A DNA stretch of 39,669 nucleotides from Planctomycetota bacterium (GTDB lineage Bacteria > Planctomycetota > Planctomycetia > Planctomycetales > Planctomycetaceae): positions 1 through 39,669 of the forward strand of contig QWQG01000039.1 in the NCBI GenBank assembly GCA_003670925.1. Reading direction: 5' to 3'. The position numbers and the translations under genes are program-made. The notes under the pieces were generated by a model. The model was not told the origin of the DNA. It searched no databases and saw only the letters and a program-made list of their open reading frames with translations. Shown here piece by piece: positions 20,562-32,613 of the stretch; the stretch's first letter is position 1, and every line of letters starts with the position of its first letter.

Positions 20562-22940
20562 TCAGAACGGCCAAATCATTGGAATTAGAATGACGCACGT
20601 CACCCAGAGCAGGAGATTCAGCGGCACGCCAACTTTTACAAAGTCATTGAAACGATATCCACCGGGACCAAAGACCATCATGTGTGTTTGGTACCCAACC
20701 GGGGAAGCAAATGCGAATGACGCGGCTAACGCGACTGCCATTACAAATGGTCTGGCATCACAGTTCGTAAGAGCAGCCGCCTTTACGCAAAATGGAAACG
20801 CCAAAACAGCCGCTCCGTTATTGGTGATCAGTTCATTGAGAACCATTGTCACAAAGTAAATCGCCGCGAGCGTGGCATAAGGTCCATATGGCTGAGTGAC
20901 TCCGACCAGTAGTGTGGACAAGTACATAGCCGCGCCAGATTTTTCAAGCGCGGCGCCAAGTCCAAATGACGCTCCAATCGCAATCAGCACCTGCCAATCA
21001 ATCGCCTGGCGACCATCGGATGCGGACATGCACCGCGTCATAATCATAAGTCCGCCCGCGATGAATGCCCCCAGCATGGCCATTTCGCCACTTCCAAAGG
21101 ACATGACTGCTAGCAGAACGACAAAAATTAGCAGGGCGACTCCCCAGCGTTCGTGGCTCATCGGTTGCGAACCTTCCACGTCACTCACGAGATAAAAGTC
21201 GGCATTGTTTCGATGCGCTTGGACAAAATTTGGACCGGTCTGCATGAGCAGCGTATCGCCAGACTCAAGCTTTACGTCACCGATCTTGGTGGCAAGTCTA
21301 GCGCCGTTTCTGTGAATCGCGACAATTGCAGCGTTGTAGTGTGAGCGAAACTGAGCCTCTCGTACGGTTTGCCCTACAAGCGGTGACGACCGGCTGACGA
21401 CGACTTCACACAACCGTCGCCGCCGTTGCTCTTCAGCGGACTTGTCTGTCGATTCTGTGGCGGGCTCTAAGCCAGGAATTTTCTTCAAATCCACGATGGT
21501 CTCTACCACGCCTGTAAACACCAATCGGTCGTTGGCTTGTAGGACAGTATCGGGACTGACAGGCGCGATAATCGAACCGCGGCGATCGACTTCGATCAGG
21601 AATAAGCCTGGCAACCGCCGCAAACCAGCGGCTTCGATGCTTTGTCCCACAAGGCGACAAGCCGATGTAACCAACATTTCAACTAGATATTCGCGGCGGG
21701 AGTCTCCCAGTTGTTCGAGCAACTCCTTCCGCTCTGGAAGCAGCTTGCGACCAATTGTCAGCATGTACGTTAGGCCCACGATCGCGCACGGAATGCCTGC
21801 CCACCCAATCTCAAAGAAACCCATTTCTGGCATGCCGTATTTTATCATCTGCCCGTCAACGACTAGATTCGTGCTAGTGCCGATCCTAGAACAGCATCCG
21901 CCAAGAATCGTCATAAAAGACAGCGGGATCAATAGTTTTGACGGAGCCACGTGTTGGCGTCGACACCATGACATAACGACAGGGATCAGCATTGCCACAA
22001 TCGGCGTGTTATTCAAAAATGCGGAGGTGCAGATGCAGAATGACGACAACATAACTAGTCCGGCGAGTTCAGTCTTTGCTGGCCCGAGGACTCGAGCGCC
22101 GATCATGTCCACAATGCCGGTTTCTTTGAGTCCAGCCGTCACCAGAAATAAGGCCGCTACCATGAGGAGGGATTGGCTCACGAATCCACTGAACGCGTCT
22201 TGAGCCGTGATGACGCCGCAGAGTGACAGAAACACGATGGCACCTGTAAACACCATGTCGGCCGGTTTTTCATACGCGAGCGCGACAAGGACAATACATG
22301 TGACGAGAATCGTCACCCACATGGAATATTCGGCTTGGATTTTGTCCCACGTCGTGAACGGCAACAGTTCCGGGATGCTCTCGGCTGAAATCAGGAGGAC
22401 GTCGAGGCAACGGGCAACCGTCTTGGCTGTGGAGTGAACCGCGACTACGTTGTTACCTTCGCGGAGCACTGAAATCGCTTCAGGTGTCAAGAGAATGACG
22501 GCGTGTTTTTCCTGGGCATTGTCGATTTTAGCAGCGAGAAAACCGTTGATGAAGATTTCCGTTTCACCGGGTGTTTGAATGTACAATGCAGGATTCGCGG
22601 GAATCGACTTCAGGGTTATTATCTGCCGGAGCCAGATCTCCGAGGATGTCCACTCGGTGAACGTCCGTCCGGTTGCATGGTCAGCCGTTCCAAATCCGCC
22701 ATACCCTGTTTGCCATTTAACCACATCGTTCAACTTGACATCACTGTACGATTCGTCAAGCCAACCTGTCGGCTGTTTCAGCGTATAACGCCACTGTGCT
22801 TCGCCAGCGTCACCCGCTGCCGCCGACGGGATCGACCCGTAACTCAAGTACATAAACAATAATGTTGTTCGCGCCATCCAAGCACGTCGAGACACACGAA
22901 TCTTAATCCAAGATGTTTGTTGCACTTCGTTGATTTTCAT
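20562..22940 (-). CDS. SLC13/DASS-type transporter with periplasmic jelly-roll domain and two RCK_C domains
   Basis: A 792-residue fusion. Residues 1-42 form a long basic n-region and signal segment ending PSAAA. Residues about 45-187 resemble the GH2-like jelly-roll sugar-binding module common in planctomycete exported proteins: WQTGYGGFGTADH, EWTSSEIWLRQ, ETEIFINGFLAAK, GNNVVAVHS. From about 207 an SLC13/divalent-anion symporter follows, with FLNNTPIVAM in the first half and ELITNNGAAVLAF in the second, and GTSTNLVV. Between the halves are two TrkA-C/RCK_C modules (around LVGQSIEAAGL and LVGQTVREAQF). It probably imports sulphate or a carboxylate with Na+. I chose ATG 22940; GTG 22952 and ATG 22877 are alternatives. 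The gene follows an adenosine kinase-like gene by 66 bp. Confidence 0.85.
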   Translation of the reverse strand: MKINEVQQTSWIKIRVSRRAWMARTTLLFMYLSYGSIPSAAAGDAGEAQWRYTLKQPTGWLDESYSDVKLNDVVKWQTGYGGFGTADHATGRTFTEWTSSEIWLRQIITLKSIPANPALYIQTPGETEIFINGFLAAKIDNAQEKHAVILLTPEAISVLREGNNVVAVHSTAKTVARCLDVLLISAESIPELLPFTTWDKIQAEYSMWVTILVTCIVLVALAYEKPADMVFTGAIVFLSLCGVITAQDAFSGFVSQSLLMVAALFLVTAGLKETGIVDMIGARVLGPAKTELAGLVMLSSFCICTSAFLNNTPIVAMLIPVVMSWCRRQHVAPSKLLIPLSFMTILGGCCSRIGTSTNLVVDGQMIKYGMPEMGFFEIGWAGIPCAIVGLTYMLTIGRKLLPERKELLEQLGDSRREYLVEMLVTSACRLVGQSIEAAGLRRLPGLFLIEVDRRGSIIAPVSPDTVLQANDRLVFTGVVETIVDLKKIPGLEPATESTDKSAEEQRRRRLCEVVVSRSSPLVGQTVREAQFRSHYNAAIVAIHRNGARLATKIGDVKLESGDTLLMQTGPNFVQAHRNNADFYLVSDVEGSQPMSHERWGVALLIFVVLLAVMSFGSGEMAMLGAFIAGGLMIMTRCMSASDGRQAIDWQVLIAIGASFGLGAALEKSGAAMYLSTLLVGVTQPYGPYATLAAIYFVTMVLNELITNNGAAVLAFPFCVKAAALTNCDARPFVMAVALAASFAFASPVGYQTHMMVFGPGGYRFNDFVKVGVPLNLLLWVTCVILIPMIWPF

Positions 22941-23006
22941 CCAAGATGACACGTTGAAACTGATTGCACACTCAATTAAGCTGCCATCTCGCGGGTTCCG
23001 TGGCAG

Positions 23007-23993
23007 CTACTGGATCATCGCCGCGATCTCTTGAGGGGTGAACCTGTTCTGGAGCCGCGCTCCTAATTGTCCGACGATACGAGCAGCAGCGTGGGACGCG
23101 AGATGCCCTGCCTGTTTCCAGTTCATTCCGTTCGTGATCCCGTACAACAACGCACCTGCGTACATATCCCCGGCACCTGTTGTGTCCAGCGGATTCACGG
23201 AGACACCTTCGATCGGAATCACTGCTCCTTCATGCATCAAAAGTGATCCATTTGCACCAAGCGTCATCGCGACATTCTCGGCATATCGATGAAGTTCCGC
23301 CGCACATTCAATCGGGTCGATTTTACCAGTCAGGCTTTTCGCTTCTTCTTCATTGCAAAAGAAGAGATCAACGGGGCCTTTGATCAAAGCCAAGATTTCG
23401 TCACGGCACATGTTGCACAGAAACGGATCGGAGGCAGTGAAGGCCACTTTTCCGCCGCACATTTTTGCGGCAGCCATCGCTTTGTAGGCTGCCGCGCGGG
23501 TGCCGGGGTTGGTCAGCAGATAACCTTCCACATACACGTACGTTGCCTGTCGCAGTTCATCTTCGTTAATGTCATTCTCTGTGAGCGTAGCCGACACGCC
23601 CAAATTTGTAAGCATTGTACGCTGAGCATCTTCTGTGATGAGCACCGCACAGGTTCCGGTCTGGCCAGAGGCAGCCGCAGCAACGTCGATGGTGACTCCC
23701 ATCTTGCGCATATCGCGAAGAAAGAATTCCCCGACTTCATCGTTGGCGACCTTGCCAGCGTAAGCGGCTTTGCCTCCAAAATGGGCGATACCCATAATGG
23801 TGTTGGCTGCGGAACCACCCGCACAACGGTTGAGGCTGATTCCGTCGAGGCGACTTAGGACACTTTTTTGCTGCCCGTCATCAACCAGCGTCATGATGCC
23901 TTTTTCGAAACCAGTTTCTGCTACCCAATGATCTGAAACTCGTGCCTGAATATCTACGAGGGCATTGCCCACACCAAAGACATCGTATCTCAT
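23007..23993 (-). CDS. PfkB family kinase, adenosine kinase-like
   Basis: A 328-residue ribokinase-fold enzyme. The N-terminal GVGNALVDI and [16 protein letters not shown] (residues 59-74) bind the sugar; the ATP-site signature is DTTGAGD (270-276) with Asp276 as catalytic base. The sequence around [11 protein letters not shown] is closest to the bacterial adenosine kinase-like branch, which phosphorylates nucleosides or sugars using ATP. Length is normal and all key residues are kept. It is the first gene of a likely two-gene unit with the transporter downstream; a short hairpin (AGCTTT/AAAGCT at 24004-24018) lies just before its start. Confidence 0.88.
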
Positions 23994-24182
23994 GTTAAAA
24001 CATAGCTTTCAAAAAGCTTGTTGGGATCGCCCCAACCGCACGTGCCGTCGAGATCTTATGTATGCCGCAGCATAGCAAACTGCCTGAACCCTTCGAAACC
24101 CTTTCTTTCCCACCTTCTTTTTGCATCGTGAGTGGGAATTTATGAGGCCCGTGTCGTTACTATTTCCAGAATCGCGGACAAG

Positions 24183-25325
24183 ATGTTTTTCCGCCCCGCT
24201 TCAGAGTTCTGGTCGCAGAAGTTCATCGAAATGCGGTTGCCACACATTCTGTATTTTTCAACGCTGCGGAACTGGTTGCAGTTGCTCCGGCGTTACGGTC
24301 GGGAATTCGACGCGGCACAATGGCCGCGAATGCTCTGGATCACACTTTTTGTCGTTGCGACGATCCCCATTCGTGTTTATGAGCGAATGCGATTCGGACG
24401 GGCTATCTTTCGACATCAGCTTTCGGCTCCGCCGGTTTTCATCGTTGGCCACTGGCGCAGTGGTACGACCAACCTGCATAATTTATTACTGCAGGACCCA
24501 GAGTTTGCGAGCGTGACAATGCTGCATTGTGCGATTCCGAGTGGTTTTTTGACATGGGAATGGCTGGCCCGCTGGATTCTGGTGCGGCGACTTCCCAAGA
24601 TGCGCCCGATGGATGCAGTGCCGCTGGGAATTGATGAACCAATGTCAGAAGACTTTGGGCTCGCCGGACTGACTCATATGAGTCATTACCTGAACTATTT
24701 TTTCCCACAAATTGCCGAACAAACGTTTCGGGCGACCGTACTGTTTGAAGGCGTCAGCCCGCAGGATGTGGCGCACTGGTCAGACCACTATGAGTACCTG
24801 CTCCGCAAAGTTTCGTATGCCAGTGGTGGTAAACGTTTACTCCTCAAGAATCCGCCGAATCTTGGCCGCGTTCCGGAACTGCTGAAACGATATCCGGATG
24901 CGAAGTTCATTCACGTCTATCGTAATCCTTGGCTGGTTCATGCGTCTTCAATGAAACTAATGCAACGTTTCATGGAGGACTTTGCATTCCAGACACACGA
25001 TCCGGTGGCGATCGAAGATTTCATCACGCGCCGCTATGCTGCGATCATGCAAAAATGGCTCGCCGACCGAAACCTAATCCCAACCGCAAACCTAATTGAA
25101 CTGCGGCACGAGGACATCACCGCACATCCCATAGAAATCATCGAAGCAATTTACCAGCAATTTGGGCTGACCACATGGCTCACGATGCAACCCCGGCTGA
25201 AAACGTACGCAGACTCAGTGGCGGACTATCAGAACAATAAATACACCTTCGAAACCGCATACCTCACACGCATCGAACCCCAGATCACCGCGTTGGCTGA
25301 AAGGCTGGGATACTCGAGGCCATAA
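24183..25325 (+). CDS. Sulfotransferase family protein
   Basis: A 380-residue protein of the PAPS-dependent sulfotransferase fold. The 5'-phosphosulphate loop is VGHWRSGTTNLHNLL (about residues 88-102) and the 3'-phosphate site is HVYRNPWLVHASS. A helical N-terminal part with a hydrophobic segment (MLWITLFVVATIPI) suggests membrane association. Such enzymes move sulphate from PAPS onto hydroxyls of carbohydrates or lipids, and planctomycetes encode many. The start is uncertain: ATG 24183 was chosen, GTG 24132 and ATG 24231 are alternatives, none with a clear ribosome site. Acceptor unknown. Confidence 0.85.
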   Translation: MFFRPASEFWSQKFIEMRLPHILYFSTLRNWLQLLRRYGREFDAAQWPRMLWITLFVVATIPIRVYERMRFGRAIFRHQLSAPPVFIVGHWRSGTTNLHNLLLQDPEFASVTMLHCAIPSGFLTWEWLARWILVRRLPKMRPMDAVPLGIDEPMSEDFGLAGLTHMSHYLNYFFPQIAEQTFRATVLFEGVSPQDVAHWSDHYEYLLRKVSYASGGKRLLLKNPPNLGRVPELLKRYPDAKFIHVYRNPWLVHASSMKLMQRFMEDFAFQTHDPVAIEDFITRRYAAIMQKWLADRNLIPTANLIELRHEDITAHPIEIIEAIYQQFGLTTWLTMQPRLKTYADSVADYQNNKYTFETAYLTRIEPQITALAERLGYSRP

Positions 25326-25340: not shown

Positions 25341-26483
25341 CTATTCTTGCGAAAGTACGACGCGATCGTCCCGCACATCGACAGTCTTGAAATGCTTGCC
25401 AAAGATAAGTGGAAATAGTTTTTCGCCCGCTTGTTTTCCTGCGCGCGTGTCCAGTTGCACGGGTTCAAGCAAGATGGCGGTCACCTCCGCTGAATCTTCG
25501 TCGCGAACCTCAATGCGGATTTTCTCAGTGCGAAAAAAAACGATCAATTGTCCAATGGTCGCTCGTTCCGCTTTTAGCTGGAAGTTCCTCGTGCGAATCG
25601 ACCCCTCCTGTGTCATCAATGTTGCGTCTGAGTTACTGCCGGAGTTCCACGCCGCATGCAATGCTGCATTGAGTAAAATATGTTGGCGTAGCGTCGTCGT
25701 AACCGTCGCGTTTGAACCCGTCCATCTGATCTCAAGATTCGGGGCCTGTTGCTGCCAAGCGTTGACAACTGTGGCTTTGAATGTACTGCCAACAGGGTAA
25801 CGATGTTCAATGGCGTCTTCCGAATCAATCTGGACGATCGTCAATTCTGCTCGATCAGTGGCGATCTCGAACGTCAGGTCGAACTGATTCAGGATCAGCG
25901 TTGTCAGGTGGGCGAAAGACATTTGGGGAAGTCGTTGTTGAGCCCACACGTCATGAGGAATGGCATCGGGATTTGTAATCACGACTCCAGCAGTCTGGGC
26001 ATGATCCAGCAGAATCTGCCGCGGCTCCGCAAGTTGCTCCCATGACGCATCCACCTTCACTGTCAGCCGCCTCAACGCCGTGGTATCAATCTTTGTGCGA
26101 AGTCCGTGCAGTTGCTCGGCGTTGGAACTGAGGAGAATTGGAAGGCGATAAATGGCATCGGACGGCCCGATGCAAGCGCAATCTTCAGTGATGCACAACG
26201 CGGCTCCAGGAATCGTGGCTGAAATCTGTTTCAGTACTTGAACACGTGGTACGAATTCCGTTTCCACGTTGATTCGGCGATGCGGATCGAGTCGGCGATC
26301 TCGCAGGATCGCGACGTTCGTCTGCGTCTGCAGATCACGGAGTTGGTCACCAAGTTCTGAGCCGATACTGACCCAACGGACGTTTGTCGCCAGAGAAGTT
26401 TTGAGTTCCTTGCCCGTGTAGAATGAGGACGGCTCGCCGGCAGGAATGCCCAAGTAAAGGAGGAGAATTGTGAGTGTCTTCAC
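25341..26483 (-). CDS. Secreted protein of unknown function
   Basis: A 380-residue protein with a short signal peptide (MKTLTILLLYLGIPAG). I recognise no catalytic family. Two stretches (QLRDLQTQTNVAILRDRRL followed by VLKQISATIPGAAL, and HLTTLILNQFDLTFEIATDR) have the helix-strand-helix pattern of secretin/TonB short N-terminal (STN)-like domains, where a segment asks for the 'best fit' of a bound element; this is a weak inference. A Cys pair (CITEDCACIG) could form a disulphide. Convergent with the sulfotransferase (15 bp apart) and divergent from the Hsp70 gene. Periplasmic or surface location is likely. Confidence 0.75.
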   Translation of the reverse strand: MKTLTILLLYLGIPAGEPSSFYTGKELKTSLATNVRWVSIGSELGDQLRDLQTQTNVAILRDRRLDPHRRINVETEFVPRVQVLKQISATIPGAALCITEDCACIGPSDAIYRLPILLSSNAEQLHGLRTKIDTTALRRLTVKVDASWEQLAEPRQILLDHAQTAGVVITNPDAIPHDVWAQQRLPQMSFAHLTTLILNQFDLTFEIATDRAELTIVQIDSEDAIEHRYPVGSTFKATVVNAWQQQAPNLEIRWTGSNATVTTTLRQHILLNAALHAAWNSGSNSDATLMTQEGSIRTRNFQLKAERATIGQLIVFFRTEKIRIEVRDEDSAEVTAILLEPVQLDTRAGKQAGEKLFPLIFGKHFKTVDVRDDRVVLSQE

Positions 26484-29685: not shown

Positions 29686-30795
29686 ATGAGATTCGCTATT
29701 GCCGGCAACAACGTCACGGCTTTTAATGTCTTGCGGGAACTTGCTGGTTCCAGTGCACACACGCTTGACCGCTGCGCGCTGTCAGGGGAATTGGCCGCCG
29801 CTGTAATTCAGGCCGGTATTCCGCTGACGCTGGTGACGACGGTCGAGGATGCGTTGCTGGCCGGTGACGTGGATGCCGTAATTGTGGCGATTGATGATCT
29901 CGACGAATCGCTGCGGGTCGTGCGCGCCGCGTCACAAGCGGATCGGTATGTGATTGTCATTCCTCCCGCGTTGTGTTCGCCCGCCTACTCGTTTGAGTTA
30001 CATCTGATCCTAGATGAATCACGATATGGTATTATGCCGCTGCTGCCACGTACGGCGATTGCTGAACTGCCATTGACTGACGTTGACCTAAGATTGGACG
30101 AACAGCCCATTCGACAGTTGTCGATCGATTTGTCGTTGTCGCAGGTCAGTCCGGCTGAACTTCGGGCGGCAGTCATCCAAGGACTCGACTATTTAGCGGC
30201 CAGCGGATTCCACTTTACGCAGGTCACAGCTTTGGAATCAAACGCTCCCGACGGAAGTCTGTTATCGCGTTTCATCACACTCAGCGCCGCGACGACGGCA
30301 GTAAAACCTTTACCTCCCGGTACTCTGACGATTAAGCCATCGACGGTGCCGCCATGCGAGAGTGTGCTTCAGATCTCCCAAAACAATGCCAGCAGCAGAA
30401 ACGTCTGCATTGTTCAGTCTGCGAATGTCGTAGAACGCATCGTGACAGTCTGCCAGTCACGTGAACTCTGCGGAAAATGGATGGAAGCTTTTTCTGTCAC
30501 ACTGGAGCTGGCAGAAGCAGTCAGCAAGTCGTTGCGGCGCCGCCGAACAGTCGATGTGCATTTCGATTCAGGCAGCGAGAAAGGCGTTTTTAAAAGTCAG
30601 ATGACGGCTATGGGCTGCGGCGTCTTGATATTCATGATGCTGGGTATGGTTGCTTATCTGATTGTGGCTCAACTGGTGCCGTTACCTAATACGATTCTGC
30701 ACATTCTTCGCATCTTGTGGATCACGCCCTTAGTGTTGTTCCTCATCGCTCAGGTTCTGCTGCCACTGGCGCGAGGCCGGGGGCGTCACGGTTGA
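29686..30795 (+). CDS. Rossmann-like (Gfo/Idh-like) protein with two C-terminal membrane helices
   Basis: A 369-residue protein. Its beginning (RFAIAGNNVTAFNVLREL, then VDAVIVAIDDLDESLRVVRAASQADRYVI) has the look of a Gfo/Idh/MocA nucleotide-binding domain, but the glycine-rich loop is reduced (AGNNVTA) and no EKP follows (VIPPALC instead), so cofactor binding is doubtful. The middle part carries a ferredoxin-like alpha/beta pattern. Two hydrophobic helices end the chain (about 305-330 and 338-362), placing the domain on a membrane. Likely a regulator or receptor derived from a dehydrogenase; the function is unknown. Its neighbours, purE and the SufE-SufS gene, do not explain it. Confidence 0.75.
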   Translation: MRFAIAGNNVTAFNVLRELAGSSAHTLDRCALSGELAAAVIQAGIPLTLVTTVEDALLAGDVDAVIVAIDDLDESLRVVRAASQADRYVIVIPPALCSPAYSFELHLILDESRYGIMPLLPRTAIAELPLTDVDLRLDEQPIRQLSIDLSLSQVSPAELRAAVIQGLDYLAASGFHFTQVTALESNAPDGSLLSRFITLSAATTAVKPLPPGTLTIKPSTVPPCESVLQISQNNASSRNVCIVQSANVVERIVTVCQSRELCGKWMEAFSVTLELAEAVSKSLRRRRTVDVHFDSGSEKGVFKSQMTAMGCGVLIFMMLGMVAYLIVAQLVPLPNTILHILRILWITPLVLFLIAQVLLPLARGRGRHG

Positions 30796-30843: not shown

Positions 30844-32613
30844 CTAACGCCTCATCAGTTTCTTTAATGCAAACTCAATCGCATTCATCAACGCTGCGAT
30901 ATCGTCAGTCGAGTTGTAAGCGGCAAAGCTAATTCGCGTGGTTGCCGAAACACCAAGGTATGAGTGAAGTGGCATCGTGCAGTGGTGCCCATGCCGTGCA
31001 AATACGTCCTGCTGGTCAAGCATCGCAGCCAGATCTTCCGGGTGAATACCGTCAATGCGAAAGGTAATGATTCCACCACGATGAGCCACATCAGGACCGT
31101 AAACCGTAATGCCGGGGACAGCTTGTAGTTGTGCCATCGCTAATTTTGTCAGCAATTGTTCGTGCTGATGAATCGATTCCAAACCAGTACGTTGCACCCA
31201 TTCCGTGGCTGTCCCAAGGGCTATGGCTTGGACAATTGGCATTGTGCCCGCTTCAAATTTTGCTGGGGCCGCCGACCATGAAGATGCCGCAATCCGCACT
31301 TCAGAAATCATGTGACCGCCGAAGATGATCGGATCCATTTCTTCCAGACGTTCGGACTTTCCATAAAGAATGCCGACGCCCGTCGGACCGTACAGTTTGT
31401 GGCCACTGAAAGCGAGGAAGTCCACATCGTCGGCAATCACATCGAGCGGCAAGTGCGGCACGCTTTGGGCTCCGTCCACGACGACACAGGCACCCACCGC
31501 GCGGGCCCGCTGTACCAATTCACGAATCGGGTTGACTGTCCCCAACATATTCGACATGCCTGTAATCGCGAGGACCCGCGTGCGTTTGGTCAACACCGAA
31601 TCCAGTTGATCCATGTCCAGCCGACCGTCGGACGTCAGCGGAATAAGCTTTAACGTCGCGCCGCGATCTTTAGCCAACTGCTGCCACGGCACAAAATTAG
31701 CGTGATGCTCCATGATCGAAGTCAGGATCTCGTCGCCTGCTTGCACATGCTTGCGGCCCCATCCGGACGCAATCATATTGAGTCCGATCGTAGTCCCCGG
31801 GGTAAACACAATGTTGCTGGCTGATGGAGCGTTCAGGAATCGCGAGATCGCCGTGCGCGCACCTTCAAACTCCTCATCGATTCTTTGCCCGAATTGATAC
31901 GTGCCCCGATGCGCATTCGCAAAATACTGCTCTTCAACTTCGCGTTCTTTGTCGATCACACATTGCGGCTTCTGTGCTGACGCGCCGCTGTCCAGAAAAA
32001 TCGGCCGGGAACCACTGCGAAGCATGCGACAGAGCACCGGAAATTGTCGTCGGATGTTGTCAACATTCAGAATCCCGATTCCGTTTGGTGCTGATTGCGG
32101 TTCGCTTGCGTGCGAACCGCCCGATGACAACTCACGCACACTACGCGCATCGCCTGCTACCTGTCTCACCACATTGGGTTCGGGGCCGCCAATCTTCCCA
32201 AGGTGCATGCGGGCCAGTTTCAAAACTTGATCCACCATGCCGCGCAAGCCGTTGCGACGTTGAGGCGTAATGTGCTGCTGCAGATTGAGTCGACGAAAGA
32301 TGGAATCGATGTCGTATTCCAGAATTTCACGCGCGGTTTTCCCGTTGTACGCTGCTTCCAAGATCGCAATCAAACCGCGGACGATATTTGAATCGCTGTC
32401 AGCCACAATCGTGAATCTGGCATACTCGTTGCCACCATCGACTTGAGTAATCAGCCAAACTTGACTTTGGCATCCATGCACTTTGTTTTGCTCTGTCCGC
32501 GCAGCGTCCTCAAGTTCCGGTAATCCATCGCCAAGTTCCAGCAGATATAGCGACTGGTCTTGCCGATCCAAGTCAGCAAATTCGTCAAAGATTTCTTCAA
32601 GTGTCAAACGCAT
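30844..32613 (-). CDS. Fused SufE-SufS: sulfur acceptor plus cysteine desulfurase
   Basis: A 589-residue fusion. Residues 1-140 are SufE, with the sulfur-accepting Cys48 in VHGCQSQVW. A linker (about 140-181) leads to a complete SufS (182-589): PLP-binding Lys406 in FSGHKLYGP, and the active-site Cys545 in RHGHHCTMPL. The desulfurase removes sulfur from cysteine as a persulphide and SufE receives it; fusion puts donor and acceptor in one chain for Fe-S cluster assembly. It lies 35 bp downstream of the Mrp gene, same strand. All catalytic residues are present, so it should be active. The sufBCD scaffold genes are not in the window. Confidence 0.95.
   Translation of the reverse strand: MRLTLEEIFDEFADLDRQDQSLYLLELGDGLPELEDAARTEQNKVHGCQSQVWLITQVDGGNEYARFTIVADSDSNIVRGLIAILEAAYNGKTAREILEYDIDSIFRRLNLQQHITPQRRNGLRGMVDQVLKLARMHLGKIGGPEPNVVRQVAGDARSVRELSSGGSHASEPQSAPNGIGILNVDNIRRQFPVLCRMLRSGSRPIFLDSGASAQKPQCVIDKEREVEEQYFANAHRGTYQFGQRIDEEFEGARTAISRFLNAPSASNIVFTPGTTIGLNMIASGWGRKHVQAGDEILTSIMEHHANFVPWQQLAKDRGATLKLIPLTSDGRLDMDQLDSVLTKRTRVLAITGMSNMLGTVNPIRELVQRARAVGACVVVDGAQSVPHLPLDVIADDVDFLAFSGHKLYGPTGVGILYGKSERLEEMDPIIFGGHMISEVRIAASSWSAAPAKFEAGTMPIVQAIALGTATEWVQRTGLESIHQHEQLLTKLAMAQLQAVPGITVYGPDVAHRGGIITFRIDGIHPEDLAAMLDQQDVFARHGHHCTMPLHSYLGVSATTRISFAAYNSTDDIAALMNAIEFALKKLMRR

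Follow-up and report, generated by a model that had tools for sequence, protein, structure and literature searches.

What does an enzyme accessory domain do at the N terminus of a bacterial membrane transporter? The question is raised by a gene of a Planctomycetota bacterium of the family Planctomycetaceae (assembly GCA_003670925.1, contig QWQG01000039.1), which was studied within a stretch of 39,669 nucleotides, referred to here as the window. A first-pass annotation of this DNA had described the gene product as an SLC13-type transporter with a signal segment, a GH2-like jelly-roll domain, two transporter halves and two RCK_C modules between the halves, and had proposed that a sugar or sulfated glycan fragment may be bound by the outer domain and its presence thereby coupled to uptake. 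All of the listed parts were found, the signal segment in the form of a predicted export-like segment. The gene is a genuine, conserved fusion that arose once from two parts of known kinds, and the evidence for this, for the fate of the added domain and for its possible role is set out below. L and G numbers denote loci and genomes, respectively.

Architecture of the fused gene

The fused gene is a minus-strand open reading frame at 20562-22940, encoding a protein of 792 amino acids (P0001) plus stop; all parts given below lie on the same strand. It opens with ATG at 22940, and a GTG at 22952 in the same frame would give 796 amino acids. The ATG is likely the true start, because the starts of the fused genes in L025, L026 and L027 align with it and, in L026 and L027, the frame is closed by a stop codon immediately 5' of the aligned ATG.

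The protein begins with an export-like segment of about residues 1-42 (22815-22940), a predicted signal peptide or uncleaved anchor in which a hydrophobic stretch follows positive residues. Such a segment precedes the jelly-roll domain in all fused proteins, as computed for five of the seven and judged by eye in L029 and L038. Of the segments computed, that of the window protein is the least hydrophobic, with a mean of 1.27 against 2.2-2.8, and in L028, L029 and L038 the segment ends A-F-A before E. The GH2-related beta-jelly-roll domain follows at about residues 45-190 (22371-22808) and is recognized from a chain of homology, trees and an AF2 model. A six-residue insertion at residues 66-71 (S-D-V-K-L-N; 22728-22745), which resembles a duplication of the adjoining D-V-K, is present in the window protein and L025 and absent in the other five fusions. 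A linker of about 13 residues (residues 191-203; 22332-22370) leads up to the first transporter helix, and the W-D pair at its end (W198-D199) is invariant in the seven fused rows.

The first transporter half, at about residues 204-400 (21741-22331), was delimited by Pfam CitMHS, AF2 helices and an alignment with VcINDY from residue 37 of the latter. RCK_C module 1 lies at about residues 411-490 (21471-21710), where a TrkA_C match is accompanied by VIA Z scores of 11.5-12.1 to MthK RCK chains, with model residues up to 490. RCK_C module 2 lies at about residues 505-575 (21216-21428), the best Pfam TrkA_C stretch being 512-569. The second transporter half, at about residues 594-792 (20565-21161), was placed by Pfam Na_sulph_symp (593-790), AF2 helices and structure alignment.

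The permease and its RCK_C modules

Pfam assigned the permease to CitMHS (PF03600), of the ion-transporter superfamily, with 208.1 bits against a cut-off of 31.9, and TrkA_C/RCK_C (PF02080) was matched in two stretches with 79.9 bits (cut-off 27), while Na_sulph_symp reached 59.3 bits (cut-off 27). On comparing the AF2 model with known structures by VIA, Z scores of 34.0-34.1 over 380-396 residues were obtained for VcINDY chains and of 38.1 for NaCT, indicating the VcINDY-type elevator fold. Model residues 198-791 align with VcINDY 37-462 (Z 34) and 207-791 with ArsB 1-426 (Z 37.6). The mean pLDDT of the full-length model is 65.1 and falls below 50 for residues 1-196, so that contacts between the domain and the transporter are unreadable in it.

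The label "SLC13-type" proved to be a loose one. The fold speaks for it, as does the annotation "SLC13 family permease" of 8 of the 15 matches listed for plasmid relatives, but the DASS model TIGR00785 gave 107.3 bits against an NCBIfam cut-off of 198.6. DASS proteins carry a Ser-Asn-Thr motif in both halves; the corresponding positions of P0001 read N-N-T and N-N-G, so that the protein cannot simply be taken for a dicarboxylate carrier. The window protein thus shares its fold with VcINDY and the SLC13 (DASS) proteins, but differs from them in score and motif, aligns only from VcINDY residue 37 and adds both the RCK_C modules and the outer domain.

The permeases that come closest by structure transport small anions or arsenite. 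Lower in the structure list are TRAP permeases for sialic acid, whose partner is a periplasmic binding protein (e.g., 7qha_B, Z 22.9), and a sugar acid is therefore a possible substrate. From the families of its parts, we infer that the gene product may be an elevator-type anion permease gated by ligands of two cytoplasmic RCK_C modules. The SAC1-like/SLT transporters of algae and bacteria are alike in that a permease carries TrkA-C (RCK_C) modules, two in SAC1, in an intracellular loop; for SLT transporters with TrkA-C, Na+/sulfate transport is described, the role of TrkA-C in them being not fully understood (PMC8780407). They are unlike the window protein in that the text drawn on from this source mentions no extracytoplasmic fused domain (PMC8780407), and the substrate of the window protein is a predicted one.

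Topology

VcINDY is described as having eleven spanning helices in two halves of opposite topology (PMC6359215). The aligned part of the window protein begins opposite its residue 37. The N terminus of VcINDY is presumably cytoplasmic, with the first helix before residue 37; on this topology and alignment, the aligned first helix would therefore start on the periplasmic side. The jelly-roll domain would then be periplasmic rather than cytoplasmic, as had been proposed at first pass, and this placement, read from the model alignment and the VcINDY topology assumed here, agrees with the export-like segment and with the position of the RCK_C modules on the opposite side. Lys plus Arg counts are not decisive, with means of 1.5 in the tail ahead of the first helix (over the 10 rows that have residues in this part) and 1.22 in the loop behind it. 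In most loci read, the unfused orthologues begin, by their predicted starts, near this first transporter helix, so the fusion would extend an end that already faced outward. The unfused proteins of L035 and L037 carry a Pro-/Ala-rich C-terminal extension of about 50 residues past the last helix, which on the VcINDY topology that we assume would be periplasmic too.

Fold and relatives of the jelly-roll domain

No Pfam family was found over the N-terminal part (22344-22826) even at E 10, and PF02837, the GH2 N-terminal sugar-binding domain, stayed below its cut-off. A second protein of the same genome matches the domain with 38% identity (E 1.7e-24); it has the Pfam GH2 N, middle and TIM-barrel domains, and the matching domain sits before its own GH2 N domain. 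When the alignment of the fused domains (A1) was compared by hhalign with an alignment of 15 non-fused members (A4, the author's pick from 30), a probability of 100 was obtained (E 6.9e-42). The A4 profile in turn matched the rhamnosidase 3w5m (5.6e-11) and the GH2 domain of BgaA (1.4e-6) in the PDB, and six GH2_N domains by hhalign (95%, E 3.7e-8). The profile of the fusions alone had no GH2 entry among its four PDB hits, three of which were RecA concatemers and were judged artefacts, and its hhalign probability against the GH2_N domains was 6%. On profile comparison, the N-terminal domain is assigned to the GH2-type jelly-roll fold via intermediates, as a transitive chain of homology in which the direct link is weak, and in this form the jelly-roll noted at first pass holds. 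A lectin was also considered, since the first PDB hits were Photorhabdus PLL-type lectins at E 2e-6; it was rejected as the match is confined to a run of about 23 residues resembling a repeated motif.

The AF2 model of the domain has a mean pLDDT of 58.9, with ten-residue blocks at 59-78 over residues 71-150. With this modest model, Foldseek and VIA gave weak matches (none with E < 0.001, best Z 7.0), in which GH2 N-domains are mixed with other beta-sandwiches; GOLD-domain structures were absent among the 50 matches, all weak, listed by each program.

The domain is present in 38 of 199 Planctomycetota genomes. According to Pfam, 12 of 29 non-window loci bearing it encode GH2 proteins (two also GH127), six PSD1 (five also PSCyt2), three HZS_alpha, one a glutaminase-A-like protein and one an F5/8 type C domain, and six have nothing above the cut-off. 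No transporter family was seen on any of these 29 loci (L057-L085), each taken with about 1.5 kb of flanking DNA. A motif of the domain, H-D-E-D ... A-V-H-C-x-Q-T-G-G-G-Q-Y-I-D, recurs across them on GH2, GH127, PSCyt2/PSD1, HZS_alpha and glutaminase-like proteins. The domain family is unnamed, in that no Pfam family scores above cut-off over the domain itself in L004 or in the window.

Distribution and origin of the fusion

The architecture, called unusual at first pass, is indeed rare. It was found in 7 of 18 genomes searched in the genus, and the other 11 match from about residue 203 on; the upstream frame was inspected in eight of these 11. In a sample of the family comprising 101 genomes, a full-length fusion occurs in three, which all belong to this genus. 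The best match has an E value of 1e-60 or better in 91 of the 101, the rest giving partial matches, domain-only matches or none. When 84,980 species genomes were scanned in a pattern-seeded, non-exhaustive way, 31 relatives were obtained, six of them fused and, by sequence, from the same organisms as six of the seven. A relative is present in 308 plasmid records, and in none of these was 80% of the protein covered. L006, L007 and L086-L089 have the same sequence figures as L026, L029, L025, L027, L028 and L038, and each was treated as one genome with its counterpart. Genes of this genus occur in two public MAG records under the name Candidatus Kuenenia stuttgartiensis, and a record named Klebsiella pneumoniae contains a relative placed beside a gammaproteobacterial MAG in the tree (loci L025, L038 and L053); all these names look wrong.

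A permease tree was built from 61 rows, 49 of them different, leaving out L001, L006, L007, L056 and matches spanning fewer than 500 residues. The 11 fused rows, equal to seven distinct ones, form one clade (98/89) nested among unfused relatives with the unfused G290 as sister, and every row in the clade retains the domain. In a domain tree of 45 rows, the fused domains have as their sister the N-terminal domain from L098 (G292, same genus; 96/88), and together they group with the other N-terminal-domain rows (98/91). Twelve rows bear the label of an N-terminal domain of GH2 type, four of them (L004, L057, L058 and L059) tested with Pfam and the others, including L098, which is cut by a contig end, labelled from the GH2-like sequence that follows. 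The homologous jelly-roll of these planctomycete GH2-type exported proteins (L004, L098) occupies the same place after an export-like segment, and in L004 and most fusions the domain is followed by a comparable stretch, D-V-x-x-[VIL]-x-x-A-x-x-x-P. The fusions differ in that the permease replaces the GH2 part and two conserved loops are changed.

A phosphoglucose isomerase (PGI) gene follows the fused gene on the same strand in L028, L029 and L038, and the unfused sister G290 has the same order of transporter and then PGI. This shared tandem order argues that the 5' end was added to a resident gene in place. As read from the sequences, the fusion is a single gain, made in place and carried by seven genomes of one clade. 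An assembly artefact is ruled out by its occurrence in seven genomes, the six others being at 71-86% identity. An inversion at the locus was considered as the cause of the fusion, as PGI is divergent in six unfused loci (L032, L033, L035, L036, L037 and L052) and tandem in the three fused ones; it was rejected, G290 being already tandem.

Neighbouring genes

In the window branch (window, L025, L026 and L027), a PfkB-family kinase gene lies directly upstream of the fused gene, in the window at 23007-23993 on the minus strand with a gap of 66 bp. This neighbour of four of the seven fused loci is the only sugar-related gene beside the fused gene, and no glycan-uptake locus was seen among the scanned neighbours of the fused genes.

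Further along the window, a Sulfotransfer_3 family protein is encoded at 24132-25325, divergent from the PfkB gene, with an 82% identical neighbour in L026. The frames at 25341-26483 and 29686-30795 (380 and 369 amino acids) match no Pfam or NCBIfam model at E 0.01, the former having a 62% identical counterpart in L026, and in the frame at 30844-32613 SufE is combined with a class-V aminotransferase domain within one protein of 589 amino acids.

It could be imagined that the domain tethers the permease to a partner in the periplasm or outer membrane, beside a sulfatase or another enzyme that releases its anion. Planctomycetota carry many sulfatases, and a sulfotransferase-family gene is nearby. 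That gene adjoins the fused locus in L026 but is absent beside the gene in L028, L029 and L038, while L025 and L027 have too little upstream DNA to tell, and no partner is known; such anchoring is considered very improbable.

Selection and loop changes in the fused domain

Pairwise dN/dS values (NG86) among the seven fused genes, where computable, are 0.11-0.22 for the domain and 0.02-0.05 for the transporter. The ratio is undefined for 9 of 21 pairs in the domain and 8 of 21 in the transporter, and several other domain pairs rest on dS above 1.5; the six pairs with dS below 1.5 in both parts (among window, L025 and L026, and among L028, L029 and L038) give the same ranges. Judged from these substitution ratios, purifying selection keeps the domain. 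Identity to the window protein is 45-74% for the domain and 81-93% for the transporter.

On comparing the fusions with 30 relatives, 21 columns were found to be conserved in at least 27 of the relatives, and 16 of these are kept in all seven fusions. Of the other five, F65 has become Tyr in 7/7, Y146 is kept in 4/7, H123 in 3/7 and G175 in 1/7, and Asp at position 124, present in 29 of 30 relatives, is found in none of the fusions. H123, D124 and G175 fall in two short loops. Loop 1 (residues 123-126; 22563-22574) has an altered form of the relatives' H-D-E-D and loop 2 (residues 170-177; 22410-22433) of their C-x-Q-T-G-G-G-Q; loop 2 varies in length, and its register is uncertain owing to insertions in most fusions. 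The less strict loop positions E125, C170, Q172 and G176 are changed in all seven. From these alignments, the fused domain looks like one that has kept its frame and lost the apparent functional edge of its relatives.

The main rival to the explanation preferred below is that the domain is a tolerated passenger. A rearrangement may have put the permease under the promoter, start and signal of a GH2-type exported protein and brought the domain along with these; it would be kept only because its misfolding after export would damage the permease. This account is favoured by the orthologues without the domain in 11 of 18 genus genomes, by the two changed loops and by the dN/dS of the domain, which exceeds the transporter value by a factor of about three to eight in pairs with both computable. 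However, the domain is kept in every row of the fused clade, its framework persists at identities down to 45% and W198-D199 of the linker is invariant in seven rows, so the passenger account is regarded as possible but rather doubtful.

The loop changes also bear on the sugar-capture proposal, in which a sugar or a piece of sulfated glycan would be bound by the domain and then handed over, or signalled, to the permease. In the printed alignment, D179-N180 of 3w5m, in the first matching stretch, stand opposite the changed H-D-E-D loop, and we take these two residues to bind calcium and rhamnose. Relatives of the domain on GH2, GH127 and other exported proteins are in keeping with sugar capture, as are the profile matches to carbohydrate-enzyme jelly rolls, 3w5m first, and the sugar-acid carriers of the superfamily, such as the sialic-acid TRAP permeases. 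Against it argue the changes in the two conserved loops in all seven fusions, the existence of unfused orthologues, the small anions or arsenite carried by the structurally nearest permeases, and a neighbourhood that has PfkB as its only sugar-related gene and no glycan-uptake locus among the scanned neighbours. Hence, this part of the first-pass annotation is not upheld: sugar capture is unlikely, while a new ligand is possible.

A structural cap as the preferred explanation

The explanation given about even chances is that of an ordinary RCK_C-type anion permease bearing a structural periplasmic cap that no longer binds the ancestral ligand. A resident, widespread permease of CitMHS type would have been extended once, in place, at its 5' end by the 5' end of a gene for a GH2-type exported protein, the donated part consisting of the export signal and the beta-jelly-roll. 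The signal would export the domain, and the short linker would then hold it over the periplasmic face. The first helix of the permease is predicted to start on the periplasmic side, and therefore the added part would fit the topology. Transport and cytoplasmic RCK_C regulation would be unchanged, and the domain may act as a cap in stability, dimer contact or partner docking. With the two conserved loops lost and the folding framework kept, such a cap is likelier than a sugar-capture device; against it stands the much faster divergence of the domain than of the transporter, as would be seen in a passenger.

Comparison with Oca2 and significance

In a literature search covering open-licence PMC, no report was found of a fusion between a jelly-roll and an SLC13-like permease. 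The nearest layout is that of Oca2, the pink-eyed dilution protein, also of the ion-transporter superfamily, in which a luminal, eight-stranded beta-sandwich stands before the first transporter helix; HHpred related it to CitMHS and others (PMC10372470). As far as the text drawn on from this source goes, its authors stated that no other solved member of the superfamily has such a domain, and a trafficking role was proposed for it from modelling (PMC10372470). Oca2 is unlike the present protein in several respects. Its domain is GOLD-like by DALI, with TPP2 at the top followed by GOLD proteins, whereas the domain studied here is GH2-related and is likened to it by layout alone; Oca2 is also eukaryotic, a cytosolic disordered region precedes the domain, and no RCK_C module is named in that text (PMC10372470). 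By analogy, the likeness of the two layouts would be one of convergence. More tentatively, and with odds that are rated as poor, permeases of this superfamily may have independently gained beta-sandwich caps before the first transporter helix, in bacteria (GH2-type) and in animals (Oca2), which would suggest that this position has in both cases a regulatory influence on scaffold and dimer; with RCK_C modules inside, the present protein would have control domains on both membrane faces.

In layout, the protein is a bacterial equivalent of Oca2, which is a pigmentation protein. The fusion is also a clear-cut example of a bacterial membrane transporter onto which the accessory domain of an enzyme has been grafted. 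Since the donor type, the recipient and an unfused sister are all at hand, the effect of gaining an outer domain is testable by its removal.
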